A stretch of DNA of 64,000 nt from Plastoroseomonas hellenica. Lineage in GTDB: Bacteria > Pseudomonadota > Alphaproteobacteria > Acetobacterales > Acetobacteraceae. The stretch covers positions 124,001 through 188,000 of the forward strand of contig NZ_JAAGBB010000001.1 in assembly GCF_018129085.1 (NCBI RefSeq). Direction: 5' to 3'. Shown in pieces: positions 4,079 to 39,873 of the stretch. Numbering within the stretch: the first letter of the stretch is position 1; each line of letters begins with the position of its first letter. A model generated the notes under the pieces. It had not been told where the DNA came from. It did not search any database and saw only the letters and a program-made list of their open reading frames with translations. Position numbers and translations under genes: made by a program.

Positions 4079-4878
4079 GTCCGCGGGTCCAGGATGTCGC
4101 GCAGCGCGTCGCCGAGCAGGTTGGTGCCGAGCAGGCTGAGCGCGATCATCACCCCCGGTGCGATGGAGAGCCAGGTCGCGGTCTCCAGATAGGGACGCGC
4201 GGCGGCGAGCATATTGCCCCAGGTCGGCGCCGGCGGCGGCACGCCGAGGCCGAGGAAGGAGAGTGCGCTCTCCGACAGGATCACCCAGCCGAACATCGAG
4301 GTGGCGAGGACCGTGAGTGGCGACACGCAGTTCGGCGCCACATGCCGCCAGAGCGTATAGGCCTCCGAATTGCCGAGTGCGCGGGAGGCTTCCACGAATT
4401 CGCGCTCGCGCAGCGACAGCACGCTGCCGCGCACCACGCGCGCCACCGCCGGCGCATAGGCGAGGCCGAGCGCCAGCACGATCCCCCATTTGGACGGCCC
4501 GATCACCGTCAGCAGGCCAAGCGCGAAGAGAATGCCCGGGAAGGCAAGCAGCGCGTCGTTCAGCGCCATCAGCGCGCGGTCCGTCCAGCCACGGAAGAAG
4601 CCAGCGAGCAGGCCGATCGTGATGCCGAGCGCCATGGCGACCAGCACGGTGACCAAGGCGACCGTCAGGCCGGTCGAGGCGCCGACCATCAGGCGCGATA
4701 GCACGTCGCGCCCGAATTCGTCGGTGCCGAGCCAATAGGGATCGGTCGGTGCCGCCAGGCGCCGCCGCAGATTGACCGCGACCGGGTTGAAGGGCGTCCA
4801 GACGCTGGCGGTTGCGGCCGTGCCGGCCACGGCAGCCAGCAGCAGGCCACCGAGCACGAGGTTGAGGCGGAGCGTCAT
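4075..4878 (-). CDS. Peptide-type ABC transporter permease (DppC-like)
   Basis: Inner-membrane subunit of 267 residues. It has an N-terminal transmembrane helix (LVLGGLLLAAVAGTAATA), the family motif LGTDEFGRDVLSR and five further hydrophobic segments. The EAA loop that couples to the ATPase reads EFVEASRALGNSEAYTLWRH. The start at 4878 overlaps the DppB stop by ATGA, and its own stop overlaps the ATPase start, so the genes are translationally coupled. Substrate class is inferred from the operon rather than from the permease. Confidence 0.94.
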   Translation of the reverse strand: MTLRLNLVLGGLLLAAVAGTAATASVWTPFNPVAVNLRRRLAAPTDPYWLGTDEFGRDVLSRLMVGASTGLTVALVTVLVAMALGITIGLLAGFFRGWTDRALMALNDALLAFPGILFALGLLTVIGPSKWGIVLALGLAYAPAVARVVRGSVLSLREREFVEASRALGNSEAYTLWRHVAPNCVSPLTVLATSMFGWVILSESALSFLGLGVPPPAPTWGNMLAAARPYLETATWLSIAPGVMIALSLLGTNLLGDALRDILDPRT

Positions 4879-25048: not shown

Positions 25049-26368
25049 CTACGACCGCGCGCTCAGGGCAGGGACCTTTCTGACCCGCCTGCCGACCTCC
25101 TCGAAGGAGGTGATCAGGCCTTCCCAGAAACCGTCGATCAGGTCCCGGTTGACCATCACCCAGGCGGAAACCAGGTCGAAATCCTGCTTGTTCAGCCCGC
25201 CGCTGATCTGCATGACCATCGGCTCCACGGCGAGCACCGTCAGCCTGTCGGCATCGAAGCGCGTGCCGGGGGTAACGCCGACCAACGGGCTGTCCGGGCC
25301 GTGCCCGCGCCGCAGCCAGATCACCTGCGTAAGGCCGGTCATGTGGGATCGCAGGCTGATCGTATCCTGCGCCGTGCCGCCGTTCGGGGGCGGGCTGGTT
25401 GCAGCTTGCTGGGCGGGTTCCGGCGCCTTCGGCTCGGCGCTCGGGATCGCGGCGGTGGCGGCCGGCGGGGCTGCCTCGGCGGCCGGCTTGGGGGATGGCG
25501 GTGGTGGAGCCGGTACGGCTGGTGGCACGGGTTCCGCTGCCTTCGATGCCGGGGGCGCAGCATCCGGATCGCCGGCGGCAGGGGCTTCCTCGGTCCGCGC
25601 CGCAGCGTGCTCGACGCTGACGCCGTCATCGTCCACCGCGAGCGAGATCGAGAGATCCGCATCGAAGACCGCTCGCAGAGCCGCTTCGAAGCCCTGCCTG
25701 AATCCGGCCATGTCCTGCGAACTGGTGCCGAATCGCTTCAGCAGCTCATCCCAGGATGTCGTGATGATCGGCCCTGCGGCCTGGCGCCGGAGGGTCTGCC
25801 GGATCCACGCATAGGCATCGAGCGCCGCCGGCTGATCCCGCAGCAGCTCCACGATGCGACGCTCGAGCGGCACCACATGGTCGGCCAGGCTCGCGAAGAA
25901 GCCGCCATTGAGGCGGATGCTCGGCCGCCAGGCGGATCCGGCGGCGCGCGGCCTGCTCCGCGCGTCGAAGATCGTGAGTGCGGGACCGCCATCCAGCGTC
26001 ACCGTGATCTTCGCGGCCAGCATGCGCGCCACCTGCTCCGCAAGCTCGCGGGCGTCCACGCCGAGCTGCGCCGCGAGCACGGCGTCGCTCTCGCCGAGAT
26101 CGACGACGGCGCTGCCGGTGCGGAAGGCCCGGTCGCAGATATGCAGGATGGCGAGTCGCAGGAGCGGCCCGCTCGGCAATGCGTGGCCGGTGGCGCCGGG
26201 CTCGATCTGGATGGCGACGGTCGCGACCTCGCGCTGCCAGGCACCCCTCGGGGCGCGAATAGGCAGGGCGATCTCGCAGAACGCGGCATGCTGCCAGATG
26301 GTCGCTTCGGCGGAGGGCGTCGCCGCAGGGTCCACCGCCGATGCGCGGGGATCAATATTCAGGCTCAT
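25049..26368 (-). CDS. RepA-type plasmid replication-initiator domain fused to a Pro/Ala linker and an unrecognised C-terminal module
   Basis: A 439-residue protein. Residues about 30-255 match the plasmid RepA_C family as I know it: an early SLP-like segment (CEIALPIRAPRGAWQRE), LPSGPLLRLAILHICDRA (family LPYGPxxRL), RLNGGFFASLADHVVPLERR, AALDAYAWIRQTLRR, TSWDELLKRFG and FRQGFEAALRAV. Residues about 258-335 are a Pro/Ala-rich linker. Residues 336-439 form a separate globular module (VGVTPGTRFDADRLTVLAVE, WVMVNRDLIDGFWEG) that I do not recognise. Start ATG 26368. No parA/parB, iterons or second replication gene lie beside it. It may be a relic or repurposed initiator. Confidence 0.75.
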   Translation of the reverse strand: MSLNIDPRASAVDPAATPSAEATIWQHAAFCEIALPIRAPRGAWQREVATVAIQIEPGATGHALPSGPLLRLAILHICDRAFRTGSAVVDLGESDAVLAAQLGVDARELAEQVARMLAAKITVTLDGGPALTIFDARSRPRAAGSAWRPSIRLNGGFFASLADHVVPLERRIVELLRDQPAALDAYAWIRQTLRRQAAGPIITTSWDELLKRFGTSSQDMAGFRQGFEAALRAVFDADLSISLAVDDDGVSVEHAAARTEEAPAAGDPDAAPPASKAAEPVPPAVPAPPPPSPKPAAEAAPPAATAAIPSAEPKAPEPAQQAATSPPPNGGTAQDTISLRSHMTGLTQVIWLRRGHGPDSPLVGVTPGTRFDADRLTVLAVEPMVMQISGGLNKQDFDLVSAWVMVNRDLIDGFWEGLITSFEEVGRRVRKVPALSARS

Positions 26369-26621: not shown

Positions 26622-28079
26622 TCACGCGGGGCACCAGGCGCGGTGCAGCACCGCACCTGGTCCTTCGCCGAACAGGTGCAGCATCTGGCGGTAGCTGCCG
26701 GCGCCAGTTTCCAACAGCCGTTCGGGCCGCGCCGCCGGCGGGCCCAGCATGTCCCGGCCGACCATGCTGGGCAACGGCGGCAGGCCCAGCAACCCGAGAA
26801 TCGTCGGTGCCAGGTCGATCAGGCTGACCGGACGGTCCTCCGTCTCCCCATCCGTCTCGTCGGGCAGACGGAATGCGATCAGGTTCACCATCTCCGCGCG
26901 GTTGAGGCCGCCATGCATGCCGCCGCCGAGCGGCAGGTCCTTGCCGGCGATCAGCGAGACGCCCGGCAGCCCGTAGGGATCGGTCGCCCCGCTGGAGCGA
27001 AGCTGCACCACCAGCGCCGGCGCCCGCGGATGCGCGGTGCCGAGGAGCGCGAGGTCGAATGCTCCCGGCGTCGTGCCCTCCACGCCATTGCCGCCCAGGG
27101 TGAAGAGCGGGCCGCACCAGGGCTGCTCCCGCACCGCTTCGGCCAGCCGGCGCAGCCGTGCGGGATCGGGCTCGCGTTGCCAGAAGCAGCAGGCAGTGCC
27201 GGGATAGATCGTGAGGTCGTCATGCAGCGCATCGAGCGCGGCGCCGAAGCCGAGCTCCGCGAGATGCTCGGCCAGCGGCAGCCGCTCGGTCACCGCGATA
27301 TGGCCATGATCGGAGGCAGCGATGACGGCGGTGCGGGCTCCGCCATCCGGCGCCGAGCGCACCGCGTCCAGCACGCGCGCGAAGGCGGCATCGGACGCGG
27401 CCAGCGCGGCGCGGGTGCCGGGCCCGTCGAGGCCGAGATAGTGGAAGCTGGTGTCCGGCTCGTTCAGCCAGAGCACCGCGACATCGGGCTGCGCTTCGGG
27501 GAAGGCGACCTCGGTCAGCACCCGCGCGCCGTACTCCATCATGCCAGCCTGCGGCAGGCTCTTCGCCGGCGGCGCGCCGAGCCGTGCCACGGCGCTGTCC
27601 CAGGCGGCAGGCGTCTCGGTCGCGGCGCGGCCATGCACCGAGAAGACCCAGGACCCATTGGCCCGGGCGCGCGGGTCGAGCAGGAAGGCACCGCCGGCGG
27701 AACCGGTGTGCACGATAGCGAGCCGCCTGCCGGCGGCCGCCAGCGCATCGGCGAAGCGCGGCGCTGCGACGAAGCCCGGGCCATGCGTCGCGACGGCGTC
27801 GCGCAGATCGTCCGGATTGGCGGTGTCGACCAGCCGGTCGCCGCGCACCGCGCGGTCGGGGAAGGCATTCTGCACGATGCCGTGCACCGCTGGCGGCGCG
27901 CCGGTGCCGATCGAGCTGGCGCAGACGCGGGTGATGGAGGGAAAGACCGAGGATGCGCGAGTGAAGCGCCGCGCCTCGCCGAGGAAGGCAGAGAGCGTCG
28001 GCATGCGGTCCGGCGTCACGACATCGGGCCTGAGCCCATCGAACACCACCATCACGATGCGGTCGGCAGTGCGGGTCAC
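26622..28079 (-). CDS. Alkaline-phosphatase-superfamily phosphodiesterase/pyrophosphatase
   Basis: A 485-residue metal-dependent hydrolase of the nucleotide-pyrophosphatase/phosphodiesterase branch. Metal Asp14 is in VVFDGLRPDV, and the nucleophile is probably Thr50 in SVFPSITRVCASSIGTG. Other metal ligands appear in LNEPDTSFHYLG, IAASDHGHIAV and GGGMHGGLNRAEMV. The C-terminus has SLIDLAPTILGLLGLP, typical of phosphodiesterase/sulfatase-like enzymes. No signal peptide is visible, so it probably acts in the cytosol. It lies 102 bp downstream of a binding-protein gene on the same strand, suggesting hydrolysis of an imported phosphoester. Confidence 0.88.
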   Translation of the reverse strand: MTRTADRIVMVVFDGLRPDVVTPDRMPTLSAFLGEARRFTRASSVFPSITRVCASSIGTGAPPAVHGIVQNAFPDRAVRGDRLVDTANPDDLRDAVATHGPGFVAAPRFADALAAAGRRLAIVHTGSAGGAFLLDPRARANGSWVFSVHGRAATETPAAWDSAVARLGAPPAKSLPQAGMMEYGARVLTEVAFPEAQPDVAVLWLNEPDTSFHYLGLDGPGTRAALAASDAAFARVLDAVRSAPDGGARTAVIAASDHGHIAVTERLPLAEHLAELGFGAALDALHDDLTIYPGTACCFWQREPDPARLRRLAEAVREQPWCGPLFTLGGNGVEGTTPGAFDLALLGTAHPRAPALVVQLRSSGATDPYGLPGVSLIAGKDLPLGGGMHGGLNRAEMVNLIAFRLPDETDGETEDRPVSLIDLAPTILGLLGLPPLPSMVGRDMLGPPAARPERLLETGAGSYRQMLHLFGEGPGAVLHRAWCPA

Positions 28080-30848: not shown

Positions 30849-33800
30849 TCAATCCAGGGTGTAGCGCGCGTAGAGCAGGCCGCGCGCCTCGTTGTAGTCG
30901 GCCGAGCGGTCGAAGCTCAGCAAGCCGCCGAGCCGGAGCTGCTGGGTGATCCGGTATTCCAGGTCGCCGCGCAGGCCGACCACGACGCCGCTCTGGCTTT
31001 GCCCGTCATAGCGGGTGCGCAGCGTCGGATCGCCGGCCGCTCGGCCTTCCAGCGTCGCCTGCAGCCCGGCATCGTTCGGGAAATAGGGCGCGGAATCCTC
31101 GCGGAAGGACGCGAAGCCGATGCTGGCGCCGAGCCGCCAGGACAGATCGCCCTGGCGCACCCGCCAGTCGATCGGCACCGTCAGGGCGGTGTAGCTCTGC
31201 GGGCTGAAATAGCCGCCATGACCGAGCGTGAAGTAGCGCAGGTTCCGCTGATAGCCGAAATGCGTGACGTTGAAGCCGGTGGTCAGCTCCTCCTCCGGCC
31301 GGTTGATGATGCGATAGGCCATGCCGGCGCCGACCTCATAACGCGTGTTGTCGCGCACATTGTCGCCATCGAAGATCGAATAGCCGCCGCCGGCATAGAA
31401 GGTCGCATCGCCGGCGCTGAGCTCGAGCTGCGCATGGCCGCCGCTGCGCGTGACATTGCCCCAGCGGGTGCCGGTCCGTCGATCTTCCATGCCCGCCCAG
31501 GACAGCACGCTGTCGGTCACCGATCGCCGCTCGCCGGTCACCCGCAGGCGGAGATTCGGCCCGAGCGCCGGCGCCACTTCGACGCCGCCGAGGATGGTCG
31601 TGTTGCGGAAGCCGACCGGCGAGGACGCCACGTCGGCCGAGAAATTGTCCCGGCGATACACAAGCTGGAAACCGACGCCGCTCGCCGAAGGGTCGCGCGG
31701 CGCCGGTCCGCCGGTGGTCCCGGCGAGCGCATTGGTGCCATAGCGCCGGTTGGTGTTCACGTCGCGGTCGATGGCGCCGGCATCGATGGTCACCGGCGTG
31801 GCGCGCACCGTCACCGCACCGCCTGCTGCCGGCAGGCGCGCTTCCGCGCTCGCCCCGATCTCGGTCAGACGGTCGAGGCCGCTGCTGCCGCTCCGCGTCC
31901 GCACACCCGGTGCGAAGGCGATCTGCGAGGCCGTCTCGTCGCGCAGCCGCTGCGCCTCGCGCGCGATCTCGGCCGCGAGCGGATCGGAGGGCGCCACGGT
32001 CGACGCCGCGAAGGTCGAGCCGGAACGGAACGGGTTATCGGACACGGCGGCCGTCCTGACCGGTGTGCCGAGCCCGCCGCCGGTCGCGGAGCGGCGCTGC
32101 TCGGAGGCGAGCTCGAGGCTGCGCATCGCGCGGCGCGGATCGCCCGCGGCGCGCGCGACGCGCGCATCCATGATCGAGACGCGCGCATCGGAAGGCGCCA
32201 GGGCGCGGGCTTCCGCGATCAGCGCCTCGGCCCGGCGAAGATCGCGGGACGCGATCGCGGCATCGACCGCGGTGCCCCGCGCATCGAGGTTGCGCGGATC
32301 GCGCGCCAGCAGCGTCTCCGCCACCTCCGCCGCTTCGCGCGGGCGCTGAGCCCCCTGGTAGAGGCGCGCCAGTGCGGCATTGGCTGCTGGGTCCATCGGG
32401 TCGCGCGTCAGCACCGGGCGCAGCGCTTCGAAGGCCGCCGCCTGGTTGCCCTGCTCGTTCAAGCGATCGGCGGTGCGGATCGCGGCGCTGGTCTGCAAGG
32501 CCGCCACCTGCCGGCGCTCATCGGCGGAGAGCCGCGGATCGCCGGCCAGCTCGCGCGCCATGGCGATGGCCTGCTGTTCCAGGCCGGCACCCACCATCGC
32601 GCTTGCGATGACCAGGCGCGCGGAGGGCGTCTGCGCGCGGCCGGGGAGGGAGGCGATGCGCGCGGCTTCCTCGGCGCCGCGGACGTCGTTCAGGCGGCCG
32701 AAGCCACGGATGACCGCCGCCACCAGCGCGCCGGTCGGGTCCGGCCGGGTGGCGATGGCGAGCAGGCGCTGGCGGCCTTCGAACATGCGGCCCGCGGCGG
32801 TGGCCGACACTGCGGCCTCCACCTCCGCCGCGGCGCGGGCGCGGGCCGCGAGGGCCGCCATTTCCGGGCTGCGGCCGCGCAACGGCACGCGGTCGAGCCA
32901 GGCGGCCGCGTCGGCCAGCCGGTCCTCGCTTTCGGCGAAGAGCGCCGCGGCAAAGGCGGCATCGGCGCCGCCGCCGCGCAGCGCCAGATCCTCGACGATG
33001 GCGCGGCCTTCGAGACCCTCGCCCTGGCGCGCGAGCAGGCGCGCCAGATCGAGCCGCGCCCAGGGATCGCTGGGGTTTGCCGCGACCGCGCTGCGCAGCA
33101 GGGCGGTGGCGGTCGCCGGATCGGATGCCGCCGCGGCCCGTCGCCGGATGCTAGCGCTGGCGCTGCCCGGTTCCTCGCCACCGCGTGGCAGCCGGCGCTC
33201 GATATCACTGGCCTCCGCAACGCGGTCCTGGCGCCGCAGCGCGCGCGCCAGGCCGGCCAGGGCCTCGCGCGCATCGGGGCGCCGGGACAGCACGGCGCGA
33301 TAGGCCTCCTCCGCGCCGCGGCCATCACCGCGGCGGAGCAGCATGTCGCCGAGCGCGATCTGCGCATCGGCGGGGTCCGACACCTGGCGCGCGGCGGCGC
33401 GGCGGAACACGGCCTCGGCGCCGGCGGTGTCACCGCGCTGGGCGAGCCTTCGGCCCTCGGCGAGGTCGAGCCCATAGCCGGCGCCGTCCAGCGCCTGCTG
33501 CCATTGCCCGGCGCGCTCCGGCGCGGCGGCGATCGCGCGGCGCAGCAGGTCCTGGGCTTCGGCCGCCCGCCCTTCCCGCAGGCGCACGATGCCGAGCCCG
33601 CCGAGCGCGTCCGGATCCGATGGGTTGCGGGCCAGCGCATCCTCGAACTGGCGGGCCGCGTCCCGGGTCTGGTTCGCCTCCAGCAGCGCGAAGCCGCGCT
33701 GCCGCTGCTCGCCGGCCTGCATGGCGAGGCGGCGCGTCGGATCCTGCGCCTCGGCCAGTCGGCTGCGCACCGCGGCATCATCCGGGTATTGCGCCAGATA

Positions 33801-34535
33801 GGCCTGGAGCTGCGGCACCGCGTCCTCGGTCGGGCCGGACCAGAGCACCGCCTGCCGCCAGGCCTGCTGTGCCGCCGCGGCGCCCTGCGGCAGCCGGGCG
33901 AGCGCCTGCAGCCGCTCGATCCCCTGGGCGCGCGTCGCGGATTGCCAGGTCAGCGCCTGGGCGTAGGCGAGCTGGGCGCGGGCATCGGAGGGCGTGCGAC
34001 GCGCGACGCCCGCGAGGCCCGCGACCCCGGCGCGGTAGCCATCCTCGGTGCCGGCGAGGGTGCTATAAAATTCGACGGCGAGTTCGTCCGGCGGCGTGCC
34101 GCCGCCGAACAGCGTTCGGTACTGGCTGATCGCTTCGCGGCCCCGCCCGGTTTGCGCGAGGCGTCGGGCTTCGGCCAGCGCTTCCGGCCGGATACCCGTC
34201 GCGCGGGCTGCGCTTTCCAGGCCGGTGAGCCGGGGATCATCCCGCGTCGTCACCTGCCGCAAACGGGAGGTAAGGGTCTCGGCCGCCGCGGTGTCGCCGA
34301 GCGCGAGCTGCACCTGCGCGGCGCCCGCCAGCGCCGCGGCATTGTTGGGATCCACGCTCAGCACGCGCTGATACCGCGGCAGGGCCAGCTCGGGGCGGTT
34401 CTGCTGCCGCCAGTAATCGCCCTGTGCGAGCAGCGCCGCGATCGCCCCATCGGCGGCTGGGCCCGCCCCTTGGGCAGCGGCTTCGCCGCAGACAAGCAGC
34501 GCGACGCCGCAGAGCAGGCGAAGGCTCGGCTTCAT
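30849..34535 (-). CDS. bcsC: Cellulose synthase operon protein C (periplasmic TPR scaffold and outer-membrane porin)
   Basis: A 1228-residue export protein. The signal peptide ends near GEAAAQ. About 800 residues of tetratricopeptide repeats follow, with recurring A-L-P-Y-x-R-V-L and DPxNxxAxxGLA patterns (for example YQRVLSVDPNNAAALAGAAQ). The last 350 residues are a BcsC-type beta barrel (LDRLTEIGASAEARLPAAGG, YEVGAGMAYRI, ending LLYARYTLD). It guides nascent cellulose through the periplasm and outer membrane. Its start overlaps the stop of fused bcsAB by 4 bp. Length matches AcsC of Komagataeibacter. Confidence 0.95.
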   Translation of the reverse strand: MKPSLRLLCGVALLVCGEAAAQGAGPAADGAIAALLAQGDYWRQQNRPELALPRYQRVLSVDPNNAAALAGAAQVQLALGDTAAAETLTSRLRQVTTRDDPRLTGLESAARATGIRPEALAEARRLAQTGRGREAISQYRTLFGGGTPPDELAVEFYSTLAGTEDGYRAGVAGLAGVARRTPSDARAQLAYAQALTWQSATRAQGIERLQALARLPQGAAAAQQAWRQAVLWSGPTEDAVPQLQAYLAQYPDDAAVRSRLAEAQDPTRRLAMQAGEQRQRGFALLEANQTRDAARQFEDALARNPSDPDALGGLGIVRLREGRAAEAQDLLRRAIAAAPERAGQWQQALDGAGYGLDLAEGRRLAQRGDTAGAEAVFRRAAARQVSDPADAQIALGDMLLRRGDGRGAEEAYRAVLSRRPDAREALAGLARALRRQDRVAEASDIERRLPRGGEEPGSASASIRRRAAAASDPATATALLRSAVAANPSDPWARLDLARLLARQGEGLEGRAIVEDLALRGGGADAAFAAALFAESEDRLADAAAWLDRVPLRGRSPEMAALAARARAAAEVEAAVSATAAGRMFEGRQRLLAIATRPDPTGALVAAVIRGFGRLNDVRGAEEAARIASLPGRAQTPSARLVIASAMVGAGLEQQAIAMARELAGDPRLSADERRQVAALQTSAAIRTADRLNEQGNQAAAFEALRPVLTRDPMDPAANAALARLYQGAQRPREAAEVAETLLARDPRNLDARGTAVDAAIASRDLRRAEALIAEARALAPSDARVSIMDARVARAAGDPRRAMRSLELASEQRRSATGGGLGTPVRTAAVSDNPFRSGSTFAASTVAPSDPLAAEIAREAQRLRDETASQIAFAPGVRTRSGSSGLDRLTEIGASAEARLPAAGGAVTVRATPVTIDAGAIDRDVNTNRRYGTNALAGTTGGPAPRDPSASGVGFQLVYRRDNFSADVASSPVGFRNTTILGGVEVAPALGPNLRLRVTGERRSVTDSVLSWAGMEDRRTGTRWGNVTRSGGHAQLELSAGDATFYAGGGYSIFDGDNVRDNTRYEVGAGMAYRIINRPEEELTTGFNVTHFGYQRNLRYFTLGHGGYFSPQSYTALTVPIDWRVRQGDLSWRLGASIGFASFREDSAPYFPNDAGLQATLEGRAAGDPTLRTRYDGQSQSGVVVGLRGDLEYRITQQLRLGGLLSFDRSADYNEARGLLYARYTLD

Positions 34536-37500
34536 GACGCTCTCCCGCGCAGTCGGCGCGCAGTTCGCCGCCGCAGTGCCCAGTGGATCGGCGGCGCCAG
34601 CACCAAAGCCGCACCAAGCGCCGTGAGCAGCAGCAACTCCCAGCGGCCGGCCAGCAAGTATTGCGGCCAGAGCCAGAAGGGCAGGCTGCCGACGGTATAG
34701 GTGTCGCCGGCCTGGAAGCTCTCGACCAGGTTGTCGTTCAGCACCGCGAGGTCGCCCTGGATGCGCGCGCCGAGCGCCGGGTTCCGCATCGCCGCCGCCA
34801 TCGCCTCCACGCCGCCGGGTGTGGCGCCGGAGATGATGACGACCGAGCGCCCGGGCGCAGCCGGATGCTCGAGCCCGATTATCGTCCCCACCTGCTCCGG
34901 CGATGCGGCGAGCAAGGTCGAGGCGCGGCTGCGCTGGCCACGGCGCGTGGCCGGCAGGAAGAGCTGGCGGAACTGGCCCAGCATGTCCGGCATCGCGACC
35001 GTGAGCCGGTTGGCCTCCATCCGGATCGGCCCATCGCTCATCAGCGCGGCGATGGCCGGCTGCCGGCTGAGGGCACCGAAGACCAGCAGGTCCTTGTCGT
35101 GCGTGGTCTGCACCTGGCCGGGGCGGATCACGGTGAGGCCGGTTGCCGGTAGGCCGACCTGTGCGGCCATGCGCCCGGTCACCGACAGGAAGGCCGCGAC
35201 CTCCGCCGATGTTGGGCGGTCCGGCAGCACCGCCGCAGTCCCGGAGAGATCGGCCATGCGGGTGAAGGGGAAGCCTGAGGTCACGAAGAAGCCGAGGTTC
35301 GGCAGTTGCGTGAAGCGGTGCGCGCCGGAGATGTCGATGGTGCTCTCCGGATCGATCGCGGCCCGGATATCGCCCGGCACCGCCGTGCAGTCGCCGCGCG
35401 CCAAGGGGCGCATGTCGAAGCGGAGCTGCAGCTCGTTGTCGCCGGACAGCAGGTAGGGCGGGATGCCGACGCTCGCATGCGAAGCGCGCGGCTGGATCCC
35501 GGCCCAGCGCGCGACGATATCGAAGGGCCAGGTGAAGTCCTGGTCCCTGAGCGTCACCGAACGCACGTAGCTGTCCGAGACCCCGACATCGAGGCGCGCC
35601 GCCGCGAGATCCAGCAGCGATGCCGGCGGCGAGCGGTAGCTGAGCGAGACCGGCAATTGGCCGCTGCGCCCGGTATAGAGATCGGGCGCGGTGCGCAGCG
35701 GCACCGCAATGGTGCCAGGCGCATAGCCATAGGCCTGGAGATCGCTCGGGTCGACCAGTTCGCCGAAGCGCATCGCCCGATCGGCGCGCAGCCAGCGCGG
35801 TGCGTCGTAGGGCGCCCGCGTCGCCGGTTCCGCGGCTTCGACCTCGACGATGGTGCCGGTCAGGGCCGCCTGGCCGACCGCCAGCGCGGTCGCCGCGCGC
35901 CCCGCTTCGGCCGGAGTGCGGCCGCCGATCACCAGCAACTGCCCCTCCGGGGCATTGGGATTGGGGATCAGTGCGATGGTCGGACCGCTGAAGCGAGGCA
36001 GGTCCAGGCCCGGTACGCCGGTCTGGCTGGTGGCGATCACCACCCCGTGGCCGGTCGGCGGCGCGCCGGCGGCAACCGGGAAGGAGGCGCCGCGGTAGCC
36101 GGCGCGCACGGCGAACCAGGATGCGGCGATGGCTGCGGCGCGCAGCAACTCGGGCGGCGAGGATTCCTGCACGACGAAGGGCAGCGTCAGAGGCAGGCGG
36201 AGCTGCCGAGGATCGAAGAACGGCTCCGGCAGTCGCGCCAGGTCAGGCGGGATCGGCAGCCGCGCGAGGGTGAGATGGATCGTGGACAGGTCGCTGACCG
36301 TCGCCCAGAGCAGTCCCGACAGGCTGTCGTTGCACTCCGGCGCATAGCGGCCGGTGAACCGAAAATTCAGCCGGTTGACGTCGGAGAAGGCCAATGGATT
36401 GAGCGGGAACTCGGTCGGCCCGAAAGCGGGGCGGTTGCGCTGCGGCTGCACCACGCCAACGAACTGGTCGTTGAGCGTCACCACGACCTGGCTGAGCTCG
36501 GGAATGAGGGCGGGGGAGGTGGCACCGCTCACGACCAGCCGGGCATTGGTGACGACCTCGTCCGCGCGGGTGCCGAAGACGACGCCCTGCAGGTCTGAGG
36601 TGCCGCGAAGCTGCATCGGCCCGCGCAGCCCGCCACCCTGTCGCAGCGTGAAGGTGAGTTCCCGGGTGCTGCCGGTGGGTGGCGGCGGCGCTTCGGCGGC
36701 TGGGGCCACCGCCGGTGCGGTGGGCAATTGGGGGAGCGGCACATCCGGTTCCGGCATCTGCGCCGGCGGCAACTGAAGGCGGAGCTGCTGCGGGGGCTGC
36801 TGGCGTGGCTGAGGCTGCGCCTCGGCGGCGCCGACGAGCAGCAGGGCGGCGAGGATGCCGAGGGTCGTGGCACGCGGACGGATGACCTCGGTACGGCTGG
36901 GCAGCCGGCCAGGTTGCGCGACCGTCTGCCGGCGCTGTCCGGTCGGGCGCCCGCGCAATGCCCGCAGACTGACCCCGGTGAAAACGGCGCCGACGCCGCG
37001 GACCACCTCACCGAGGGAGCGTAGCGGCTTGTCGTGCCGATGCTCGTCCCAATCCACCCAGGCATCGGCGCGGCCCATGACCGCGCGCACGATCTCGGCC
37101 TCGTCCGCGAGGTCCGCCGGCTCGAAGCGCAGATGCCCCTCGAGGCCGTCATTGTCGAGCAGCATGGCTGGGATCGACACCCACTCCGACCCCGCATCCA
37201 GCTCGACCCTGACCGGCGTCATGGGATTGAGGCCGGCTGCCTCGTCCAGCATGATCGCGAGGCCGCCGAGCGAGAGGTCGCGCGTCACGCCCGGCAGCCT
37301 CTCCCCGTTCGGCAGGATGATCGTGGCGGGGATCGCGGTGTTGAGGCGGGCGCGGCTGCGTCGCTGCCGCCGCTCTCGTCCCACCGCGATGCCGGCCAGC
37401 ACCGGCACCAGACAGAGCAGCGCCCAGGCGCCATTCAGCGCATAGGCCTGGAACTCCAGGCTGCCGGCCGGATTGACCAGGAGCCCGCGCACCCCGCTCG

Positions 37501-39040
37501 CGACGCCGAGGAGCAGGAAAGAGGCGAGCACCACGCTCGGCCAGACGGCCTGCCAGTCGTAATAGCCTTCCTGCAGCACGCCGCCCTTGTCAGTCACGTT
37601 GAACTTGCCCTTCCTCGGGTTCCAAAGGGTGGCGATGGTGATGGGCACCAGCCAGAGCGCGAGCACGACCTCGTAGATCTCGCTCCAGAAGGAATGCCGA
37701 ACGCTGCCGGAGATCCGGCTCGCGGTCGCGACTGCGTGGATCATATGCGGCATCGCGTAGGCGATGATCGCGAGCGGCGAGGCCGCGATGACCGAATGCC
37801 CGAGCAGCAGGAAAGCGAGCGGTGAGGTCAGGAACACCACGCGCGGGATCGCGAAGCCGTAGTAGAACATCGCCGAGAAGTAGCAGAGCCGCTGCGGCAG
37901 ACTGAGGCCGGAGACGAAGAGCGGATTCTCGGTGCGGGCGATCTGCAGCATGCCGCGGGCCCAGCGCATGCGCTGCCCGATATGCATGATCAGCCGCTCT
38001 GTCGCGAGGCCGGCGGCGAGCGGCATCCTGAGATAGGCCGTGCTCCATCCCTGCCGCTGCATGCGCAGCGACAGGTGGCAGTCCTCCGTCACCGTCTCGG
38101 TCGGTACGCCGCCGGCGCCGATGAGTGCCGTGCGCCGGATGATCGCGCAGGAGCCGCAGAAGAAGGTCGCATTCCAGAGATCGTTGCCGGGCTGCACGGC
38201 GCCGTAGAACATCAGCCCTTCGTTCGGCACATCGAGGCCGGCCGAGAGATTCCGCTCGAAGGGATCGGGCGAGTAGAAATGATGCGGCGTCTGCACCATC
38301 GCGAGCTTCGGGTCGCGTACCAGCCAGCCCATGCCGAACTGCAGGAAGGCGCGCGTCGGCACATGGTCGCAGTCGAAGATCGCGATGAATTCGCCATCGG
38401 TGAGGCGGGTGGCGTGATTGATGTTGCCGGCCTTGGCGCCCTTGTTGTCCGGCCGGATGATGTAGCCTGCGCCGCAGGCCTGGGCGAAGGCGCGGAATTC
38501 GGCGCGGCGGCCGTCATCCAGGATGTAGACCGAGAGCTTTTCTGGCGGCCAGTCGAGCGAGAGCGCAGCGAGCACCGTCGGCTTCACCACATCGAGGCTC
38601 TCATTGTAGGTCGGGATGTAGATGTCGACCTTGGGCCAGTCGGCCGGGTCCTTCGGCAGTGGCACGGACCGGCGCGGCAATGGCCAGAGCGTCTGGAAAT
38701 AGCCGAGCAGCAACGCGATGCCCGCGTAGATCTCGGCAAGCACCAGGCCGGTCATGAAGAAGCCCTGCCAGAAGCCTTCGTATTCAATGGTGTCGAACAG
38801 CCGCCAGGTGAGATAGCGGGCCGTGACTGCGACTGATAGAACCGCCAGAAGCACTGAGATCCGGCGGCCCTTGATCCTGTTCAGCAGCACGAAGGCCAGA
38901 ACGGTGCCGGCCCCGATCCAGGCCTGCTCGGTGGCCGTCACGGATGTGGTCACGAAGGCATATAGCAGGGTCGCGCCGGCCAGTATGGCCAGCAGGATGA
39001 GCAGGCGAGCGTGCAGCGGCACCCGCAGGGCAGTCACCAT
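34532..39040 (-). CDS. bcsAB: Fused cellulose synthase catalytic subunit and periplasmic subunit (BcsA-BcsB, AcsAB type)
   Basis: A 1502-residue protein. The BcsA half (about 1-730) has GT2 motifs YILDDG (175-177), DCD (223-225), TED (318-320) and QRMRW (356-360). It also has the gating loop FNVTDKGG (480-487) and a C-terminal PilZ domain with the RxxxR-type Arg cluster near 557-566 and DLSLGG (588-593), which bind c-di-GMP. A second signal-like helix near 735-755 (ATTLGILAALLLVGAAEAQ) and a Pro/Gln linker lead into the BcsB half with carbohydrate-binding domains and a C-terminal membrane anchor (LLLLTALGAALVLAPPIHWAL). The fusion matches Acetobacteraceae AcsAB. The start overlaps bcsQ by 7 bp. 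Confidence 0.96.
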   Translation of the reverse strand: MVTALRVPLHARLLILLAILAGATLLYAFVTTSVTATEQAWIGAGTVLAFVLLNRIKGRRISVLLAVLSVAVTARYLTWRLFDTIEYEGFWQGFFMTGLVLAEIYAGIALLLGYFQTLWPLPRRSVPLPKDPADWPKVDIYIPTYNESLDVVKPTVLAALSLDWPPEKLSVYILDDGRRAEFRAFAQACGAGYIIRPDNKGAKAGNINHATRLTDGEFIAIFDCDHVPTRAFLQFGMGWLVRDPKLAMVQTPHHFYSPDPFERNLSAGLDVPNEGLMFYGAVQPGNDLWNATFFCGSCAIIRRTALIGAGGVPTETVTEDCHLSLRMQRQGWSTAYLRMPLAAGLATERLIMHIGQRMRWARGMLQIARTENPLFVSGLSLPQRLCYFSAMFYYGFAIPRVVFLTSPLAFLLLGHSVIAASPLAIIAYAMPHMIHAVATASRISGSVRHSFWSEIYEVVLALWLVPITIATLWNPRKGKFNVTDKGGVLQEGYYDWQAVWPSVVLASFLLLGVASGVRGLLVNPAGSLEFQAYALNGAWALLCLVPVLAGIAVGRERRQRRSRARLNTAIPATIILPNGERLPGVTRDLSLGGLAIMLDEAAGLNPMTPVRVELDAGSEWVSIPAMLLDNDGLEGHLRFEPADLADEAEIVRAVMGRADAWVDWDEHRHDKPLRSLGEVVRGVGAVFTGVSLRALRGRPTGQRRQTVAQPGRLPSRTEVIRPRATTLGILAALLLVGAAEAQPQPRQQPPQQLRLQLPPAQMPEPDVPLPQLPTAPAVAPAAEAPPPPTGSTRELTFTLRQGGGLRGPMQLRGTSDLQGVVFGTRADEVVTNARLVVSGATSPALIPELSQVVVTLNDQFVGVVQPQRNRPAFGPTEFPLNPLAFSDVNRLNFRFTGRYAPECNDSLSGLLWATVSDLSTIHLTLARLPIPPDLARLPEPFFDPRQLRLPLTLPFVVQESSPPELLRAAAIAASWFAVRAGYRGASFPVAAGAPPTGHGVVIATSQTGVPGLDLPRFSGPTIALIPNPNAPEGQLLVIGGRTPAEAGRAATALAVGQAALTGTIVEVEAAEPATRAPYDAPRWLRADRAMRFGELVDPSDLQAYGYAPGTIAVPLRTAPDLYTGRSGQLPVSLSYRSPPASLLDLAAARLDVGVSDSYVRSVTLRDQDFTWPFDIVARWAGIQPRASHASVGIPPYLLSGDNELQLRFDMRPLARGDCTAVPGDIRAAIDPESTIDISGAHRFTQLPNLGFFVTSGFPFTRMADLSGTAAVLPDRPTSAEVAAFLSVTGRMAAQVGLPATGLTVIRPGQVQTTHDKDLLVFGALSRQPAIAALMSDGPIRMEANRLTVAMPDMLGQFRQLFLPATRRGQRSRASTLLAASPEQVGTIIGLEHPAAPGRSVVIISGATPGGVEAMAAAMRNPALGARIQGDLAVLNDNLVESFQAGDTYTVGSLPFWLWPQYLLAGRWELLLLTALGAALVLAPPIHWALRRRTARRLRGRAS

Positions 39041-39873
39041 GATCGCTGTCCCCAGCGCGACGGATCCAGCAGGGGCGGCGGTCCGGCCGCTGGCTGAGAG
39101 GCGGCGACGGGTGTCGGCAGCAGCGCGACCAAAGCCTGGGCAATGGCGCCGAGATCCGTGGCTGCCCGGCTGGCGGGCGCGAAGTCGAGCAGCAGTCGCT
39201 GGTAGGCCAGCGCCTCGCTCATTGCTTCGTCGCGCGCGACGGCACCGAGCAGCTTCGGCCCGAGATGCCGTGCGACCGCCTCCGCCGCGGTGAAGCTGAG
39301 GCGGGAAGCCTGGTCCACCTGATTGATGATGATCCTGAGACGCGAGGCGAAGAGCGAGGCAAGCGTGCCCTGGCCGAGGAAGGCACCGGTCTCGACCTGG
39401 GGAAGCAAGGCGGTGCTGGCGGCATCGGCGAGCAGGACGGCGACGAAGGTGTCGACCAGCGGGATCACCGCCGCAAGCGCATGCGACGGGCCGGGTGGTG
39501 TATCGATGATGATGACGAGCCCAGGATCGGCCATCAGCCGCCGCAGCGGCGCGGTGATCTGCTCGGGATTCCGCTCTATGGCGACAGCGAGAGCCAGGCT
39601 GCTCGCCATATCGAGCGCGCCATGCGGCAGCAGCGCAACCCCGGACGCGGTCTCGCGCAGCGCGCCTCCCGGATCGACGCCGGCCGTCAGTCTGGCCATG
39701 AAGCCGCCGGTATCCTCAAGGGGGACGCCAAAATGCAGCCGCAAGGCGTTCTGCGGATCGAGATCGATGGCCAGCACGCGTCGGCCGGCGCGCTGCAGGG
39801 CATGCGCGAGATTTGCGGACATCGTCGTCTTCCCGACGCCACCCTTCGGCGAGGCGAGGCAGATTACTGGCAC
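39034..39873 (-). CDS. bcsQ: Cellulose biosynthesis ParA/MinD-like ATPase BcsQ
   Basis: A 279-residue SIMIBI ATPase. Deviant Walker A KGGVGKTTMSANLAHAL (residues 10-17), switch/Walker B VIIIDTPPGPSHAL and RRVLAIDLDPQNALRLHFG are typical of BcsQ (YhjQ). It localises or stabilises the synthase complex at the inner membrane. It starts 4 bp after the small Pro-rich gene and overlaps bcsAB by 7 bp. A free-standing partition role is unlikely given this operon position. Confidence 0.92.
   Translation of the reverse strand: MPVICLASPKGGVGKTTMSANLAHALQRAGRRVLAIDLDPQNALRLHFGVPLEDTGGFMARLTAGVDPGGALRETASGVALLPHGALDMASSLALAVAIERNPEQITAPLRRLMADPGLVIIIDTPPGPSHALAAVIPLVDTFVAVLLADAASTALLPQVETGAFLGQGTLASLFASRLRIIINQVDQASRLSFTAAEAVARHLGPKLLGAVARDEAMSEALAYQRLLLDFAPASRAATDLGAIAQALVALLPTPVAASQPAAGPPPLLDPSRWGQRSW

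Follow-up and report, generated by a model that had tools for sequence, protein, structure and literature searches.

The gene studied here occupies positions 25049-26368 on the minus strand of the window, the 64,000-nucleotide stretch of DNA that was analysed, which corresponds to bases 124001-188000 of a 380,634-base contig (C1) in the 161-contig, 7.28 Mb draft genome of Plastoroseomonas hellenica. Its 439-codon frame begins with an ATG at 26368, closes with a stop codon ending at 25049 and has no internal stop; upstream, the frame remains open as far as a GTG at 26656. The encoded 439-aa protein consists of a predicted tandem winged-helix initiator domain (residues 21-256, minus strand 25601-26308), a Pro/Ala-rich linker (residues 257-335, minus strand 25364-25600) and a C-terminal module (residues 336-439, minus strand 25052-25363), and we refer to it as the fused protein. 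RepA_C is its sole Pfam match up to an E value of 10 (35.3 bits against a cut-off of 26, residues 106-207), and an NCBIfam scan returned weak matches to the linker region alone (best E 0.061). Nineteen homologues share this architecture. Because the three parts follow one another in an open frame in all 20 proteins, a sequencing frameshift between two genes at the module boundary and a chance join of genes are both excluded. The linker varies in length and composition across the 20 proteins, from 50 to 178 residues and from 32% to 71% Pro+Ala.

Four neighbours in the window were scanned and encode an endonuclease/exonuclease/phosphatase, a PLD-like protein, a type I phosphodiesterase and BcsC. 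At 30849-39873, two frames of 1502 and 279 aa come after the BcsC gene (Pfam BCSC_C), with a weak ParA-like match nearby; this is probably an operon for cellulose synthase that includes BcsQ. Around the fused gene, the region from 800 bp upstream to 500 bp downstream contains no set of direct repeats with three or more members. When 380,000 bases of the window's contig were searched with the partition proteins of the Roseomonas plasmid p546-1, the ParB query had no match and the ParA query had one match of 58 residues (36%). The first-pass annotation had noted that neither iterons nor partition genes accompany the gene, and this agrees with the repeat scan and, as far as these ParA and ParB queries reach, with the partition search. 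The contig carries one tRNA-Ser gene and none of the marker motifs sought. The genome as a whole contains two RepA_C matches, the fused gene and a full-scoring protein on contig C8, and no second clear copy of the module.

The structure of residues 20-256 was predicted using AlphaFold2 with a pLDDT of 92.0. The input consisted of the window sequence, two fused homologues and 18 RepA relatives from viral contigs (18 of 22 viral RepA loci, leaving out L213, L216, L220 and L222). The model was matched to RepE54 of mini-F (9nb0_C, Z 14.4, rmsd 4.0, 195 aligned residues; the top row of the same crystal series reached 14.6), and to domains 2-3 of RctB, the initiator of Vibrio chromosome 2 (5tbf, Z 12.1, rmsd 4.0, 213 aligned residues). 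Foldseek matched RepE54 over its whole length (E 7.9e-7), and the winged-helix regulator CssR was matched at Z 8.0. The high confidence of the model and the matches to RepE54 and RctB indicate that the N-terminal domain, as predicted, retains a RepE/RctB-like tandem winged-helix initiator fold. The RepA-type domain proposed in the first-pass annotation is upheld in both respects, with a RepA_C match above the cut-off and a predicted initiator fold, and its Pro/Ala linker and tethered module of about 100 residues recur in the same order in the 20 proteins.

The module of the window protein, scanned alone, has no Pfam match up to an E value of 10. AlphaFold2 modelled residues 324-439 with a pLDDT of 81.9; the model had no match in Foldseek (best E 0.55), and sequence searches of the module against the PDB and PHROGs gave best E values of 0.24 and 0.25. 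The best VIA-align match, to the integron-cassette protein 3fy6 (Z 5.7, rmsd 3.7, 86 aligned residues), falls short of what a claim of kinship would need. Profile searches linked the module to short frames in five other Acetobacteraceae genomes (G062, G086, G111, G118 and G121), those of G111 and G121 at 3.8e-11. A Roseomonas plasmid contributes a further relative, a hypothetical protein 132 residues long, and 16 viral-contig loci in IMG/VR encode relatives of the separate module family. The relatives have in common a TGL...W pattern near the start and a W..N....(W) pattern near the end. The module had been described as unrecognised, which holds for the Pfam scan and for the comparison of its model with the PDB, where no clear match was found, and does not hold for the module family, whose members exist as separate proteins. 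On some viral contigs two separate-module copies lie within about 2 kb (L166-L168, frames at 4865 and 5437; L169, frames at 2907 and 4718). A separate module gene in another alphaproteobacterial family (L141/L142, G183:C1:175192-175485) has flanks that by eye are 5-aminolevulinate synthase-like and serine hydroxymethyltransferase-like.

Some of these separate proteins are DUF4160-like. All four separate module proteins scanned matched DUF4160 (best E 7.7e-4), as did 9 of the 14 sequences in a mixed alignment (A7) of 11 separate proteins and three fused modules (E <=0.1, best 6.3e-6); the alignment used 11 of the 16 viral module loci, leaving out L167, L168, L171, L180 and L181. Only one of 11 fused modules matched, weakly (E 0.06). 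The module belongs to a family of small proteins, part of which is DUF4160-like. Published reports treat DUF4160/DUF2442 gene pairs as resembling toxin-antitoxin systems: the DUF4160 protein DhiT of the dhiTA pair in Dickeya dadantii is a proposed toxin that inhibits growth (PMC8198452), a DUF4160/DUF2442 ORF pair of plasmids is said to raise plasmid persistence in Thermus (PMC12724237), and DUF4160/DUF2442 is tabulated as a TA pair (PMC12654330). We do not attribute toxicity to the module, since its similarity to DUF4160 is remote and it is fused to a conserved protein. A Rosetta-stone test of 27 separate-module loci (some of them overlapping or near copies) found no RepA-like frame at E 1e-3; six control loci were detected, some of which were in the model by construction.

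Out of 120 genomes searched from the family to which the window belongs, Acetobacteraceae, 18 were positive for the module profile. The fused form is present in 16 of these at 17 loci (eight of the 16 genomes supplied the search profile), and the remaining two, G111 and G121, have the short frame only. A scan of genome contigs recovered the fused architecture in Roseococcus sp. SYP-B2431 and a MAG of the Acetobacteraceae, and tblastn searches of plasmids recovered it whole on the 265-kb plasmid 1 of R. gilardii and on the 441-kb p546-1 of R. haemaphysalidis, where both proteins are annotated as 'replication protein RepA'. A wider search covered 240 genomes of the class at E 1e-4 and had two positives: the genome of the window itself, and a genome from another family whose copy is separate. 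Viral contigs were searched too and yielded no member of the fused family. Of the 20 fused proteins analysed, 18 genomes supplied 19 and p546-1 the other; in G003 there is only an N-terminal piece, at a contig end. RepA_C scores are borderline in the family: four of five aligned homologues matched at E 0.01, two fused homologues scanned separately scored 27.7 and 27.4 bits, and the R. gilardii copy reached only 15.5 bits. The first-pass annotation took the protein for an orphan; it belongs instead to a conserved family of 20 fused proteins, encoded by what is mostly a single-copy, inherited bacterial gene.

Trees of the fused protein and RpoB were compared for 17 genomes, leaving out G003 (N-terminal piece) and G021 (rpoB fragment only). 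Both trees contain one deep split of eight and nine genomes (support 100/99 and 100/100, respectively), and their distances are correlated (Mantel r 0.47, p 2e-4), which is partly due to this split. Many of the forks beneath this split lack resolution, and the trees conflict at two points. The congeners G000 and G004 are sisters in the RpoB tree (100/100), whereas the fused-protein tree pairs G004 with G001 (90/76); the partner of G129 is G007 in the RpoB tree (95/94) and G020 in the fused-protein tree (100/99). These conflicts show that some transfer or replacement took place and that descent was not strictly vertical.

Terminal branches have a median length of 0.66 in the fused protein compared to 0.091 in RpoB. 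In five pairs for which dN/dS was estimated, some with dS values close to saturation, the ratio was 0.12-0.31 for the module, 0.33-0.75 for the N-terminal domain and 0.23-0.88 for the linker, and it was lower in the module than in the N-terminal domain in all five. These ratios indicate that both domains are under purifying selection, the module more strongly. A decaying relic of an integrated plasmid, which the first-pass annotation had offered as one possibility, would account for such fast evolution and for a window gene with neither par genes found nor origin-like repeats alongside. We nevertheless regard decay as very improbable, as the frame is open in 20 proteins, dN/dS is below 1 in both domains of every pair and the deepest split of the family is shared with RpoB.

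We compared the N-terminal domains of the fused proteins with a set of 25 ordinary RepA_C proteins. Of 46 columns conserved in the ordinary set, 23 are retained by 85% or more of the fused proteins, and of 12 columns invariant in it, six (P36, P65, G67, R71, D184 and W206) are retained by every fused protein. By contrast, the Arg of WLAYRL is present in 25/25 ordinary proteins and 0/20 fused ones, and the same is true of both the Tyr and the Ala of YP.A. The net charge of the domain ranges from +3 to +12 in ordinary proteins (median +6) and from -10 to +5 in fused proteins (median -3.5); only four of the latter are net positive (+1, +2, +4 and +5), two of them inside the ordinary range. The change extends to both helix-turn-helix regions, where the median charge goes from +4 to -1.5 in WH1 (p 2e-8) and from +3 to -1.5 in WH2 (p 2e-7), with p values that treat related sequences as independent. 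In the putative recognition helix of the fused proteins, F223 and R224 each show conservation of 90% or more. If the altered positions are, as we infer, those that contact DNA, the fused family has apparently lost the surface with which it gripped DNA, and DNA binding by the fused protein is now doubtful.

Iteron-like repeats, scored as 12-mers present in three or more direct copies inside 400 bp with no more than one mismatch, were found at 2 of 20 fused loci compared to 9 of 14 ordinary RepA loci (Fisher p 0.002). The sensitivity of the scan is limited, as it was blank at 5 of the 14 ordinary loci, and flanks were short at two fused loci, G022 (149 bp downstream) and G021a. Five ordinary loci were left out of the count, four because the frame taken lay on the wrong strand (L026, L027, L028 and L031) and one because its match was short (L033), and the counts were unchanged when gene starts were set less exactly. 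A spacing of 21-24 bp is present in eight of the nine repeat-positive ordinary loci; at one of the nine, L042, the spacing is irregular and the repeats may be due to chance. The two fused loci with repeats are G007, where they are spaced 15 and 24 bp apart about 650-690 bp upstream, and G130, with spacings of 62 and 67 bp. Both beat 10/10 shuffles and we therefore do not call them chance.

No gene recurs as a neighbour within 25 kb at 11 fused loci, where matches were scattered, mostly limited to few loci and at varying distances; this gives no hint of a partner. It also bears on whether the protein is a repurposed DNA-binding regulator, in which the winged helices would bind other sites or bind more weakly, as in a transcription factor, for instance, while the module would serve as the effector. 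The retained initiator fold, the conserved half of the columns, the well-kept F223 and R224, the match to CssR and the four members with positive N-terminal domains all speak for such a regulator, which we consider unlikely but deserving of serious weight. Both helix-turn-helix regions are net negative in the median member, most loci lack repeats, and there is no recurring neighbour to regulate. The first-pass annotation had listed a repurposed DNA-binding protein among its proposals; of this, the repurposing stands and the DNA binding has become doubtful.

The genomic setting of the fused gene is probably often chromosomal. It shares an 827-kb contig with rpoB, 191 kb away, in G094; in G022 dnaA is 26 kb away and valS (ValRS) is on the same contig; in G036 cysS (CysRS) starts 1.2 kb downstream and TrpRS is on the same contig; and in G007 atpD is on the same contig, 30 kb away. 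The identities of the G022, G036 and G007 genes were confirmed. These four are draft assemblies in which misassembly is possible. In two named records the gene is plasmid-borne. R. gilardii plasmid 1 has a second RepA_C protein, of the ordinary kind, and therefore need not rely on the fused one; a short RepC is also annotated on it. The same plasmid (NZ_CP015585.1) encodes, by annotation only, a Piwi domain-containing protein at L074 15978-17165.

On p546-1 (NZ_CP061178.1, L046-L054), we observed ParA and ParB, no regular repeat array and no recognised initiator besides the fused RepA, which is the sole RepA_C protein and the sole annotated Rep in a gene table that is incomplete, so that an unrecognised initiator is possible. 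Ten of the plasmid's hypothetical proteins were scanned and none of the ten matched Rep families at E 0.01. A repeat-array scan gave three hits, all irregular and none at repA. The cumulative GC skew, which is weak, has its minimum at 18 kb and its maximum at 265 kb, parAB lies at 1-2.3 kb at the start of the record, and repA is at 67 kb. This plasmid supports a further explanation, that the fused protein is a working initiator of secondary replicons and the module an accessory comparable to the DnaA_N tail, scoring at the Pfam cut-off, on the RepA protein of contig C8 in the window's own genome. The RepE/RctB fold would suit such an initiator. We judge it improbable overall: core chromosomal genes share the contig in four genomes, repeats occur at few of the fused loci, the Arg is missing from every fused protein, and even on p546-1 the skew extremes and parAB lie away from repA. 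The origin protein of a chromid suggested in the first-pass annotation is disfavoured by the core genes on the same contig in four genomes, by the missing iterons and by the loss of positive charge from both HTH regions, with p546-1 as a possible case.

On balance, and by comparison of sequences, we think it somewhat probable that the fused gene is a former plasmid-type initiator that has been kept largely by descent in one branch of Acetobacteraceae, is often chromosomal, no longer initiates replication and now encodes a protein-binding regulator. In such a regulator the N-terminal domain could be a scaffold on which the protein self-associates or meets partners carried over from initiators, such as RepA monomers, DnaA or helicase; the tethered module may reach a separate conserved partner; and the protein would act by binding proteins, not at an origin. 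The strongest result against a protein-binding regulator is p546-1, as no other initiator was recognised there.

A bolder version, which we hold to be a long shot, is that the gene encodes a host-encoded incompatibility factor: an ex-initiator unable to bind origins would pair with, and poison, incoming RepA-type initiators or helicase-loading partners, with the module as the effector. The module's small-protein family is also encoded by viral contigs and a plasmid. If true, it would be a form of plasmid or phage control built from a plasmid's own initiator.

The family offers a defined, testable gene for asking what the initiator fold does after initiation ends, and it connects a conserved gene of the cell with a module that is uncharacterised and partly DUF4160-like. 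Its members annotated as 'replication protein RepA' may be miscounted as replicon markers. The fold, the domain and the module relatives are already known; their combination was not met in the literature searched on Roseomonas plasmids and RepA, where no paper united RepA_C, plasmid and Roseomonas, or Roseomonas, megaplasmid, RepA and replication.

Among known systems, the closest by sequence are the RepA_C plasmid initiators (PF04796), which have the same domain and, as described above, half of their conserved columns retained in the fused family. The ordinary proteins compared are net positive, have the invariant Arg and often have repeats beside the gene, whereas the fused family adds a linker and a module and can be chromosomal. 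The RepA_C protein on contig C8 of the same genome is built alike in having a RepA_C domain followed by a C-terminal accessory domain, but scores 180.9 bits, has three direct repeats upstream and has DnaA_N as its tail. The DnaA_N-like domain of this ordinary initiator (L004, G000:C8) scores 24.6 bits at a cut-off of 24.6; a similar tail at L029 (G030:C510) scores 21.8 bits, below the cut-off, and one at L030 (G005:C28) was recognised by eye only. The module is like DUF4160 (PF13711) through its separate relatives, some of which match, and unlike it in the window's own copy, which does not. RctB is a known example of a plasmid-type initiator that drives a second chromosome. The window's N-terminal domain is predicted to share the tandem winged-helix fold of RepE54 and RctB, but its sequence is only 13-16% identical to the RepE54 rows and 10% identical to RctB, and the protein has no Pfam Rep_3 match and an extra linker and module. 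An initiator fold apparently kept after the loss of its DNA-facing chemistry and its origin would have met a fate unlike that of RctB.
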